Shown piece after piece: positions 38,348 through 62,700 of a stretch of DNA of 64,000 nt. The notes below the pieces were generated by a model. The model did not search any database, was not told where the DNA came from, and worked only from the letters and a program-made list of their open reading frames with translations. The translations under genes and the position numbers were made by a program. Numbering within the stretch: position 1 is the stretch's first letter; each line of letters starts with the position of its first letter. The stretch comes from Dactylosporangium sp. AC04546 (lineage in GTDB: Bacteria > Actinomycetota > Actinomycetes > Mycobacteriales > Micromonosporaceae), in assembly GCF_022095675.1 (NCBI RefSeq), contig NZ_JAHYSG010000015.1, forward strand, positions 62,001 through 126,000, read 5' to 3'.

Positions 38348-38395
38348 TGTGCAATTCTGTGATCGACCGGGAGACGATGTCAAGGAGCGCCGGGC

Positions 38396-38424
38396 ATGGA
38401 CACGGGCATGGACACGGGCATGGA
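38396..38424 (+). repeat. 12-bp tandem repeat spanning the start codon
   Basis: ATGGACACGGGC occurs twice in tandem and a third partial unit (ATGGACA) follows, encoding MDTG-MDTG-MD. Each unit brings an in-frame ATG, so slippage would add or remove start codons without shifting frame. Confidence 0.8.
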
Positions 38425-38974
38425 CAACAGCACGCATGTGGAGCAGGTCATCTGGCACGGCGACCTGAGCGGCGACCCGGACGGGCAGCTCACCGTCGGC
38501 GTCGCGCGGCGCGACGGGGACGTCGTGACGATCCGGCTCCGCGACGGCGACCGGCTCGTCGCCGACGTCCGCCTCCGCAACGGCCCCACGCGCCGGCCGG
38601 CCCCGCACGACCTGCTGCGCACCGACCTCGGCCCGGGCGCGGACTGCACCCGCACGTTCGTCGTCACCGCGGACGCGACCACCGACCACGTGCCCGGCGC
38701 CGTGCCGGTGCTCAGCACGCCCAGCCTGATCGCGTACCTCGAGGACACCGCCGCCGACGTGCTGCGCCCCCACTTCGGCCCGGCGACGGCGTCGCTCGGG
38801 ACCTGGATCGGCGTGCGGCACACCGGCCCGGCGCGCGCCGGCGACCAGGTGCTCGTCACGGCGGTGCTCGCCGAGGTGCGGGGCCGCCGGTACCTCTTCG
38901 ACGTGGAGGCGACCGTCGCCGGGCGCCCCGTCGGCGACGGCCAGGTGGCGCAGACGCTGGTCAGGCTGGGCTGA
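38396..38974 (+). CDS. FlK-like hotdog thioesterase
   Basis: 192-residue protein. The C-terminal ~115 residues show a fluoroacetyl-CoA-thioesterase-like hotdog domain: VPVLSTPSLIAYLEDTAADVLRPHF, then TASLGTWIGVRHTGPARAGDQV and YLFDVEATVAGRPVGDG. The N-terminal ~75 residues are a beta-rich extension I do not recognise. AAGGAG lies 8 bases before the first ATG, which sits in a 12-bp tandem repeat offering three in-frame ATGs. Divergent from a CoA ligase with a KstR2 operator between. Likely hydrolyses an acyl-CoA of the pathway. Confidence 0.78.
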   Translation: MDTGMDTGMDNSTHVEQVIWHGDLSGDPDGQLTVGVARRDGDVVTIRLRDGDRLVADVRLRNGPTRRPAPHDLLRTDLGPGADCTRTFVVTADATTDHVPGAVPVLSTPSLIAYLEDTAADVLRPHFGPATASLGTWIGVRHTGPARAGDQVLVTAVLAEVRGRRYLFDVEATVAGRPVGDGQVAQTLVRLG

Positions 38975-41211: not shown

Positions 41212-42062
41212 CGGCCGCCGTCGCGCATGGTGCGGGCGTCGTGCCCGGCCAGGGCGTCGGTGCCGGTCTCGGCGTTGTGGGCGTGGGCCACGTGGTGCAG
41301 GCCGAACACCGAGTCCATCCCGGCCCGCAGGCCCATGAGGTCCTCGGCCTGGTTGACGGCCTTCTTCGTCAGCGCCAGCCCGAGCCGCGGCATCTTCGCG
41401 ATCCGCTGGGCGATGTCCATCGTCGACGTCTCGAGGTCGGCGCGGGGCACGACCCGGTTCACCATGCCCAGCTGCAGGGCCCGCTCGGCGCCGACGCGCT
41501 CGCCGAGGAACAGGAACTCCTTGGCGTAGCGGGGCCCCATGACCCACGGGTGGGCGAAGTACTCGACGCCGGGGATGCCCATCCGCACGACGGGGTCGGC
41601 GAAGAACGCGTCGTCGGCGGCCACGATGAGGTCGCAGCACCAGGCGAGCATGAGCCCGCCGGCGATGCAGGCGCCCTGGACCATGGCGATCGTCGGCTTG
41701 GGCAGCTCGCGCCAGCGCCGGCACATGCCGAGGTACACCTCGGACTCCCGGGCGAAGCGGCTCTCCGCGCCGGGCTTGCCGACGTGGTCCCACCACAGCC
41801 CGGCCCGCCGCTCGAAGCTGGTGTCGATGTCGCGCCCGGGCGTGCCGATGTCGTGCCCGGCCGAGAAGTGCTCCCCGGCCCCGCCCAGCACGATCACCTT
41901 GACCTCGTCGTCGGCCGCCGCGCGGTACAGCGCGTCGTCGAGGGCGTAGGTCATGGCGGAGTTCTGGGCGTTGCGGTACTGCGGGCGGTGCATCGTGACG
42001 ACCGCGACCGGCCCGTCGGTGCGGTACTGGACGACCTCTTCGTGGGTCTGTTCGTCGGTCAC
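41208..42062 (-). CDS. Enoyl-CoA hydratase/isomerase family protein
   Basis: 284-residue crotonase-fold protein: FSAGHDIGTPGRDID (oxyanion-hole segment), QGACIAGGLMLAWCCDLIVAADDAFFADPVVRMG (second oxyanion half and active-site region). Longer than EchA20 with an insert after GHDIG. GTG at 42062 overlaps the dehydrogenase stop by 4 bases. Acts on an enoyl-CoA of the pathway; exact step unknown. Confidence 0.88.
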   Translation of the reverse strand: MTDEQTHEEVVQYRTDGPVAVVTMHRPQYRNAQNSAMTYALDDALYRAAADDEVKVIVLGGAGEHFSAGHDIGTPGRDIDTSFERRAGLWWDHVGKPGAESRFARESEVYLGMCRRWRELPKPTIAMVQGACIAGGLMLAWCCDLIVAADDAFFADPVVRMGIPGVEYFAHPWVMGPRYAKEFLFLGERVGAERALQLGMVNRVVPRADLETSTMDIAQRIAKMPRLGLALTKKAVNQAEDLMGLRAGMDSVFGLHHVAHAHNAETGTDALAGHDARTMRDGGR

Positions 42063-43177
42063 TGGGTCTCCTGGAGGTGGAGGGCGGCGGCGATCCGGTC
42101 GAGGCGGGCCCCGGTGTCGCCGAGGGCCTCGATCGCCCAGGCCCGCTTGGCGTAGCGGTGCAGCTCGTACTCGACGGTGTAGCCGATGGCGCCGTGGCAC
42201 TGGATCGCGGCCCGGCTGGCGGCGTGCGCGGCCTCGGCGGCCTGCACGACGGCGGCGTCGACGGCCGTCTCGGCGTCCGTGTCGTGTTCGGCGGCCCAGG
42301 CGGCGGCGAGCACCACAGGCCGGGCGAACTCGATGCCGAGGGCGGCGTCGGCGAGCTGGTGCTTCACGGCCTGGAAGCTGCCGACGGGCACGCCGAACTG
42401 GTGGCGCTGCTTGACGTACTCGACGGTGAGCTCGACCATCCGCCGCCCGAGCCCGACGAGCTCGGCGGCGTAGGCGATGCCGGCCCTGCGCCGTGCGGTC
42501 GCGAGCAGGCCGGGGTCGGTGGTGAGCACGTCGCCGCCGGCCGCCCGGGCCGCGTGCAGGGCCGGGTCCACGGTGGCCACGGGCGCCCCGGCGCCGTCGC
42601 TGAGCCGGGCTTCGTTCTCGCCGAGGTGCAGGACCAGGTCGGCACCCTCCCCGAACGGCACCAGCCCGCCCGGCCCCGCGAGCGCGATCTGGATCCGCCC
42701 ACTGACGACACCGTCGAGCGTGGCGGCAATCCATGCGGGGTCAGCGGCCGGGGAGTTCGGTCGGTCGACCGACTCAGGGAAAGCGGTGTCACTCGGTCGG
42801 TCGACCGACCGAGAGGACGCGCTCTCATTCGGTCGGTCGACCGACCCAAGCGAACCGCTTTCGTTCGGTCGGTCGACCGACCGAGTGGCAGCGTTGACAC
42901 TCGGTCGGTCGACCGACCGAACGGGGTCGTGCAGCAGCGCCGCGAGGAGCGGGGCCGCCACGAAGGCCGTGGCCGTCACCGGAGCCTCCAGGGCGGCGGC
43001 GCCGATCTCCTCCAGGACCGCCACCAGGTCCGTCTCCGCCAGGCCCAGGCCGCCCTGCGAGGCCGGGACCAGGGCGCCGAACAGGCCCAGTTCGGCCAGC
43101 GCCGGCCAGCCCTTCGCGAGGGGCTCGCGGACGGCGTCGCGGAAGGCCAGCTGGTCTTCGGTCGGGGCGAATCGCAC
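42059..43177 (-). CDS. Acyl-CoA dehydrogenase with palindromic-repeat insert
   Basis: 372-residue FadE-type flavoprotein of the steroid heterotetrameric kind. The C-terminal helical domain is normal: YVKQRHQFGVPVGSFQAVKHQLAD and AIQCHGAIGYTVEYELHRYAKRA. Residues ~85-143 hold five copies of a 12-residue unit with SVDRP at its core, encoded by a 36-nt periodic DNA palindrome, in the middle beta domain. The N-terminus (FRDAVREPLAKGWPALAELG) looks about 20 residues shorter than usual. GTG at 43177 follows AAGGGGG. Partner of the next gene; function may be changed by the insert. Confidence 0.85.
   Translation of the reverse strand: MRFAPTEDQLAFRDAVREPLAKGWPALAELGLFGALVPASQGGLGLAETDLVAVLEEIGAAALEAPVTATAFVAAPLLAALLHDPVRSVDRPSVNAATRSVDRPNESGSLGSVDRPNESASSRSVDRPSDTAFPESVDRPNSPAADPAWIAATLDGVVSGRIQIALAGPGGLVPFGEGADLVLHLGENEARLSDGAGAPVATVDPALHAARAAGGDVLTTDPGLLATARRRAGIAYAAELVGLGRRMVELTVEYVKQRHQFGVPVGSFQAVKHQLADAALGIEFARPVVLAAAWAAEHDTDAETAVDAAVVQAAEAAHAASRAAIQCHGAIGYTVEYELHRYAKRAWAIEALGDTGARLDRIAAALHLQETQ
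42759..42918. repeat. Five palindromes at exact 36-nt spacing inside the dehydrogenase gene
   Basis: GGTCGGTCGACCGACC, a perfect 16-bp palindrome (one base off in the first copy), recurs with centres at 42766.5, 42802.5, 42838.5, 42874.5 and 42910.5. The 36-nt period equals 12 codons and keeps the host frame. Spacers differ, yet several are self-complementary at their ends: GAGAG/CTCTC, AAGCG/CGCTT and GAGTG/CACTC. Confidence 0.95.
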
Positions 43178-54318: not shown

Positions 54319-54340
54319 GGATCACCTTCCTTATCAGTCT

Positions 54341-54392
54341 TGATGCATCACATCTGATGCATCAGTCGTGACGCATCAGCACCGATGCTTCA
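54341..54392. promoter_or_regulatory. Array of 14-nt-spaced TGATGCATCA palindromes
   Basis: TGATGCATCA (perfect palindrome) starts at 54341 and 54355; TGACGCATCA starts at 54369 and CGATGCTTCA at 54383. All are 14 nt apart. The block lies 22-74 bases upstream of the thiolase start, and its last unit overlaps the stop codon of the upstream SDR gene. Confidence 0.7.
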
Positions 54393-55040
54393 CTGCGTGA
54401 CCGTCCAGCCGCCGTCCACGGGCAGCAGGACGCCGTTGACGTAGGCGGCGGCCGGCGAGAGCAGGAACAGCACCGCGGCGGCGACGTCCTCGGGACGCCC
54501 GGCGCGGCGCATCGGGTTGCGCTCGACGAGCGCCCGGCCGAGCGGGCTGTCGGCGAAGCCGGCCATCCGCGGGGTCTCGATGAAGCCGGGCGCGACGGCG
54601 TTGGCCCGCACCTTCGGCGCGAGACGGGTCGCGAGGTGGCGGGTGTAGCCGGCGATGGCCGCCTTGCCGGCGCTGTACCAGGCCGAGTCGGTGCCGACGA
54701 GGTTCCCGGCGACGCTGGCGACGTTCACGACCGCGGCCCCGTCGGGCGGGTCCGTGGCGAGCCAGGCCGACGTGACGAGCTCGACGGATCCGGCGGTACC
54801 TTCGAGCCCCGCACTGAAGGTCAGGTTCGTGGAGCTCGCCGGGCCGGCGTTGTTCACCAGGTAGCGGGCGGGACCCACCTCGGCGAGGGCGGCCTCGACC
54901 GCGGCGCGGTCGCGGGTGTCGACCACCATGCCGCCCGGGCTCAGGTCCCAGACGACGGGGTTGAGGCCCTGCTCCTTCGCGAGGCGGACGATCGCGGCGC
55001 CGATGCCGCTCGCGCCGCCGGTGACGATGACGGTGTCCAT
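54390..55040 (-). CDS. Short-chain dehydrogenase/reductase
   Basis: 216-residue, compact SDR: VIVTGGASGIGAAIV, VVWDLSPGG, NNAGPA, Ser in NVASVAG and YSAGKAAI (YxxxK), then PGFIETPRM and NGVLLPVDGGW. The ATG follows the fadD3 stop with no gap, so the two are co-transcribed from the operator at 56560. Probably oxidises a ring or side-chain hydroxyl in the HIP pathway. Confidence 0.88.
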   Translation of the reverse strand: MDTVIVTGGASGIGAAIVRLAKEQGLNPVVWDLSPGGMVVDTRDRAAVEAALAEVGPARYLVNNAGPASSTNLTFSAGLEGTAGSVELVTSAWLATDPPDGAAVVNVASVAGNLVGTDSAWYSAGKAAIAGYTRHLATRLAPKVRANAVAPGFIETPRMAGFADSPLGRALVERNPMRRAGRPEDVAAAVLFLLSPAAAYVNGVLLPVDGGWTVTQ

Positions 55041-62574: not shown

Positions 62575-62658
62575 AGAACCGGCCTTCCGGACGGTGCCGG
62601 GCGACGTTCAACCCCGGCCGTACCGTTGACCGAGCGTCACCAGAACAGCCAGTCATCC

Positions 62659-62700
62659 GGGGTACGCGCATCAGGGGTACGCGCATCAGGGGTACGCGCC
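62659..62700. repeat. 15-bp tandem triplication at the end of a dehydrogenase gene
   Basis: GGGGTACGCGCATCA occurs twice in tandem and a third copy covers the last codons and stop of the acyl-CoA dehydrogenase (…GAYP*). Each unit contains the TGA on the minus strand, so two redundant stop-containing copies lie past the true stop. Confidence 0.85.

Follow-up and report, generated by a model that had tools for sequence, protein, structure and literature searches.

An Operator-Like Palindrome Array in an Acyl-CoA Dehydrogenase Gene

The window, that is, the whole stretch of 64,000 nucleotides of Dactylosporangium sp. AC04546 analyzed here, contains a gene of the acyl-CoA dehydrogenase family (42059..43177, minus strand; 372 aa, protein P0001). 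This gene carries in frame an array of five operator-like palindromes of the TCGGTCGGTCGACCGACCGA type (42757..42920; array and palindromes are assigned to no strand). Exact copies of GGTCGGTCGACCGACC start at positions 42795, 42831, 42867, and 42903 and form palindromes 2 to 5 (42795..42810, 42831..42846, 42867..42882, and 42903..42918), and the fifth copy, palindrome 1 (42759..42774), has a single mismatch, a T at its last base. Neighboring dyads are exactly 36 nt apart throughout. The five 16-bp palindromes with an exact 36-nt period announced in the original prediction are therefore confirmed as an array and in their period, with the correction that only four of the five are perfect. Matches to the motif TCGGTCGNNCGACCGA start within the array at 42757, 42793, 42797, 42829, 42865, 42869, 42901, and 42905. 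When up to three mismatches are allowed, GGTCGGTCGACCGACC has 10 matches in the window (eight in the array, two outside) vs. 3.03 expected, a number attained in none of 100 shuffles. Moreover, no other tandem array in the window scores as high (42757-42920; 195 at period 36; runner-up 85). Further short tandem repeats are found in the window at 54333-54401, 62654-62699, and 38391-38426, with units of 28, 15, and 12 bp, respectively.

The best NCBIfam match of P0001 is IpdE2, with 102 bits, below the cut-off of 450 of this model, and the closest relatives of the protein belong to Dactylosporangium. In P0001, the array is translated as five 12-residue SVDRP units, which had been described as an addition to a FadE-type enzyme. 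Alignment with FadE relatives agrees with this description, since 23 of the 25 aligned proteins are devoid of the insert, the two carriers being the window's own protein and its orthologue from D. sucinum, where the array occupies the same position. P0001, identical to the window translation, is also recorded on a contig of 13,083,175 bases, and P0121, another array-bearing protein from a 13,083,175-base contig, is encoded exactly in a second locus of the present genome (L030). Because of these two records and of the D. sucinum array, it is unlikely that the window and L030 arrays are artefacts of a draft assembly.

AlphaFold2, run with the 25-sequence alignment, gave a mean pLDDT of 83.1 for the dehydrogenase and values below 50 for residues 86-142, which hold all five units. 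The insert is thus predicted to be a disordered stretch between the N-terminal helices and the beta domain, and not, as first thought, a part of the middle domain. In three other Dactylosporangium species, the dehydrogenase (P0027, P0028, P0029) has a second, unrelated and repetitive insert near its C-terminal domain, which is VHAHPTADAR-like or GERGVHVE-like (locus L154 in genome G001). That this second insert (P0027, P0029) is a related palindrome array was rejected, as it lies at a different place in the protein; in the G001 gene, where the insert is as in P0029, no stem of at least 6 bp with a loop of at most 8 was found. With loops at two places in different species, the gene appears to tolerate them at both.

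Distribution of the Palindrome in Dactylosporangium and Related Genomes

The motif was sought in seven Dactylosporangium genomes, named G000 (this genome) to G006, and in a sample of 397 genomes of the order including G000. G002 is probably D. sucinum, a sister species. A genome-wide search recovered the palindrome in large numbers: TCGGTCGNNCGACCGA is present 235 times in G000, 42 times in G002, twice each in G005 and G006, once in G001, and not at all in G003 and G004, and the window array is one of at least 29 clusters. A reversed-motif control had no match. In the order sample, 50 of the 397 genomes contain the site, with one or two copies in each of the 49 besides G000. CGGTCGGTCGACCGACCG was found 62 times in G000 and 16 times in G002, and had no match in the 59 remaining genomes of the relatives sample. 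Two samples of G000, of 400 kb and 160 kb, are free of TCGGTCGNNCGACCGA sites; since 560 kb of sampled sequence holds none, the sites of this genome must be clustered.

In-frame copies lying in different genes are read in different frames, giving SVDRP, GRSTDR, or VGRPT. Because the frames differ, it is the DNA and not the peptide that the copies have in common. A protein search with the array region (E up to 1; candidates of about 205-651 residues) returned three proteins, two from G000 and one being the D. sucinum orthologue. An ordinary protein repeat, for which distant genera would share the peptide with different DNA underneath, is thus rejected: the same DNA is used in different frames and also stands between genes, and only these three proteins matched.

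A Putative Operator of a TetR-Family Regulator

On another contig of G000 lies a gene for a TetR-family regulator (G000:C38:73182-73745). This TetR is found in five of the seven genus genomes (E up to 1e-12) and in four of the 397 order genomes, namely G000, G071, G080, and G108 (E up to 1e-30), absence from the others being weak evidence since eight candidates per genome were scored. G003 and G004 have neither the regulator nor any TCGGTCGNNCGACCGA site. At all eight distinct TetR loci, an exact 16-mer precedes the regulator gene and lies 134-277 nt ahead of its HTH codon. Exact pairs of the 16-mer, 34-38 bp apart, occur at five of them (G000, G002, G005, G006, and G071); the second copy is degenerate in G001 and G108 and is partly masked by N in G080. 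G005 and G006 have no sites other than one pair, spaced by 34 bp, where the TetR-family gene and an mddA-like gene diverge. G071, a member of another family of the order, has a pair spaced by 36 bp at the same TetR/mddA-like position. The G005 neighbor passes the NCBIfam model of methanethiol S-methyltransferase MddA (319 bits, cut-off 270), and an mddA-like neighbor is seen, from translations, at five of the eight loci (G001, G005, G006, G071, and G080). In G000 and G002, the TetR promoters are themselves arrays (L021 and L145), with 12 and 9 overlapping 16-mer matches, respectively. The gene divergent from TetR is there alpha/beta-hydrolase and glycosyltransferase-like, and follows mddA in G005.

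The half-sites of the motif, TCGGTCG-NN-CGACCGA, have inverted symmetry around a variable center. By its position, the palindrome is very probably the operator of this TetR-family regulator, and TTCGGTCGGTCGACCGACCGAA would be the sequence bound. The occurrence upstream of the orthologous TetR gene at eight of eight loci lends strong, though indirect, support to the proposal that the gene conceals a protein-binding array. Presence of TetR and of the motif are associated in the order sample (Fisher p 0.0002) and in the genus (p 0.048). Of the 393 order genomes that gave no TetR match, 46 have the site as well. Among 10 such or related loci that were read, two are at this TetR and six are elsewhere; at the other two, L209 and L210, from two order genomes, the same 16-mer stands directly upstream of a different TetR-family gene. 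The motif is therefore not exclusive to this TetR, and related operators may serve more than one regulator.

Genomic Context of the Clusters

With a rough gene calling by codon position, 196 of the 235 G000 sites were analyzed as 29 clusters, which are spread over many contigs. Seven are coding or possibly coding, 19 are intergenic with both neighbors called, and three have one neighbor called, so that, within the accuracy of this calling, 22 of the 29 lie outside genes. Coding clusters are backed by related proteins in the window, L030, and L024; two clusters in L023 and those of L016 and L027 are coding by codon signature only, L016 and L027 being doubtful. In G002, seven of the nine clusters examined are read as lying in open frames, one is the TetR promoter, and one (L190) is unclassed. 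The 19 intergenic G000 clusters separate convergent genes in six cases, divergent genes in four (one being the home locus), and tandem genes in nine. This is not different from 1:1:2 (p 0.79), hence no promoter bias.

These orientations bear on the possibility that the regulon was truly expanded. TetR would then be a global regulator, and the multiplied operators would repress their host genes and flanking genes, among them FadE, by promoter occlusion or as roadblocks. The motif is indeed the candidate operator of a regulator, and both species have arrays at three places, namely in FadE, in the hydrolase gene of L030/L143, and in the promoter of TetR. Nevertheless, we consider this expansion unlikely, given the six clusters between convergent genes (by the rough calling), the functional mixture of the copy-bearing genes, as judged from translations, and an amidase array of G002 that is absent from G000. 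The spread over many contigs without promoter bias would suit a role at the scale of the chromosome, the arrays serving as a TetR sink or as positional marks on the nucleoid. SlmA and RefZ, of the TetR family, use dispersed motifs in this manner (PMC6657595). Such a role is nonetheless distinctly unlikely, the RefZ model NF037937 giving the TetR relative of G071 27.7 bits for a cut-off of 180.

Two other kinds of sequence were noticed in these genomes. In and beside intergenic arrays (L021, L022, L025, and L028), strings like CCATGATC or GATCATGG turn up repeatedly, perhaps as another intergenic repeat. In 240 kb of G002 (L131-L142), GTTTCACGTGAAAC, which we take to be the parS site of ParB, occurs five times.

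Evolution of the Arrays

Comparison of G000 with G002 shows arrays at the same place in FadE, in the L030/L143 hydrolase gene, and in the TetR promoter. The flanks are 210/243 and 425/500 bases identical for FadE, and 444/500 on the TetR side. At these three places, the palindromes are kept, while copy number and spacers differ. Within arrays the picture is similar: the palindromes, selected at up to five mismatches, are 0.95 alike between units of the window array and its spacers 0.55, the values for the D. sucinum array being 0.93 and 0.66. Some arrays have identical units, which implies tandem duplication. The persistence of the palindromes is compatible with selection for binding and with recurrent copying of intact sites.

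Compared with shuffles, the spacers of 36-nt units resemble one another more closely from locus to locus (0.658 vs. 0.565, sd 0.015; 33 spacers, 200 single-base shuffles). This likeness and the many loci, coding as well as intergenic, are what a MITE-like or other mobile palindromic element, unrelated to TetR binding and moved by an unrecognised enzyme, would produce. Such an element is highly unlikely in our view. None of the 124 distinct spacers is exactly common to two loci, no match to Y1_Tnp (RAYT) was found in G000 or G002, and the motif at eight of eight TetR loci would be left unexplained. In addition, comparison of four sites revealed no clean insertion boundary. G000 lacks the amidase array of G002, and the linker has no such boundary. 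The cobL-like gene, which has a related imperfect palindrome in G000, is equally long in G000 and G003-G006, with 12 nt fewer in G001. The gene of L146 is shorter than its G004 relative, the one used for comparison from a DNA search with the L146 flanks that gave mostly noise. Two relatives of the L024 TetR gene depart from its length by 9 and 3 nt. The isolated copies (in the cobL-like gene, L146, and the L024 TetR gene) are thus not net insertions, which argues against plain copy-and-paste.

The self-complementary look of the DNA had also led to the proposal of a chain of cruciforms. Palindromes retained because they form cruciforms or hairpins would account for the many perfectly palindromic copies. 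The 36-nt-unit spacers have a consensus, GGCAAGCGCTTCCA, with a weak dyad of its own, and at spacer position 13, counted from the palindrome dyad, complementarity of the two sides exceeds expectation (0.45 vs. 0.34, p 0.007; among 14 positions tested, this one stands out). The spacers of G000 arrays also carry a weak second dyad, AAGCGCTT. Yet in 109 distinct sites, no covariation was seen at arm positions 7-10, the inner 12 bases being fixed by the site selection. Because the arm positions vary independently, cruciforms gain no support; selection for them was rejected and this reading of the palindromes is extremely unlikely. Independent arms with a variable center fit the half-sites of a dimer.

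Proposed Origin and Significance

The window array is most likely an ectopic amplification of the TetR operator. Ancestrally, the promoter of TetR itself likely held the operator in two copies, spaced by 34-36 bp, the TetR gene being divergent, in most relatives found, from an mddA-like methanethiol S-methyltransferase gene. In the lineage of G000 and D. sucinum, a unit of operator plus spacer would have been duplicated in tandem at home, and would also have arisen at numerous further loci, some intergenic and others in frame within genes. TetR would bind the motif, and binding of the ectopic copies may still constrain their half-sites. The spread would have been mainly non-regulatory, a birth-and-death process of a repeat that bears the operator; TetR titration or local transcription roadblocks may have come as side effects. 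Conservation of the motif at the regulator, its lineage-specific excess, its clustering, the duplication of units, and palindromes that outlast their spacers are the observations behind this proposal. Array spacers that, to the eye, are unlike those of the home promoter weigh against it. On balance, we think it probable that an operator-bearing repeat multiplied in one lineage, is tolerated in linkers and intergenic DNA, and is still bound by TetR. A selfish, protein-tolerated repeat, as the original prediction had it, fits the clusters at unrelated loci and the disordered loop in the dehydrogenase. More tentatively, the operator may itself be the proliferating repeat, with arrays kept by regulator binding and entering genes, either selfish or acting as a TetR sink or positional mark.

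Short repeat families of bacteria are often of unknown origin. Here, one can name a likely source (the operator of a regulator), a protein that likely binds it, and congeners in which the site is not amplified, so that the transition from binding site to repeat is directly testable. If true, the proposal would provide a natural counterpart of engineered operator arrays. It would also call for caution, as motif-based prediction of regulons may take repeats for regulation.

Comparison With Known Systems

Several families of short palindromes resemble the present one in part. REP/REPIN sequences with their RAYT are likewise short palindromes at many loci, but a REP/RAYT system was rejected because Y1_Tnp is absent from both array-rich genomes, G000 and G002; two matches were found in the site-free G003. 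HIP1 of cyanobacteria is a short palindrome strongly overrepresented within one lineage (PMC4390886), a likeness that holds here. However, the present sites are clustered, with none in the 560 kb sampled, and a HIP-like dispersed palindrome was rejected on the 400-kb and 160-kb samples of G000. The RPEs of Rickettsia are palindromic repeats of about 150 bp tolerated in frame in unrelated genes (PMC10969869). The in-frame location in unrelated genes is shared, whereas the unit has 36 nt here, forms tandem arrays, is mostly outside G000 genes (seven of the 29 clusters being coding or possibly coding, and 22 not in genes), and has a likely operator origin. With isolated copies that are not net insertions, the comparison with RPEs drawn at the outset holds as an analogy only. 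Neither operator arrays of such kind nor palindromic repeats of Dactylosporangium appeared in the titles and abstract openings of the literature searched.

RutR of E. coli is a TetR-family protein with sites inside genes that are not known to be amplified into arrays; location within genes is shared with the present case, amplification is not. SlmA sites and RefZ motifs also are dispersed motifs of a TetR-family protein (PMC6657595), but they are single sites where arrays are found here, and the 27.7 bits of the G071 relative with NF037937 place it far below the RefZ-family cut-off. By its working, the nearest known system would be the TetR operator. As with TetR regulators having paired operators in a divergent promoter, the inverted repeat stands upstream of the gene, at eight of eight loci and as an exact pair at five of the eight. 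What sets the present case apart from ordinary TetR operators is the presence of at least 28 further clusters in one genome, many of them arrays and some inside genes.
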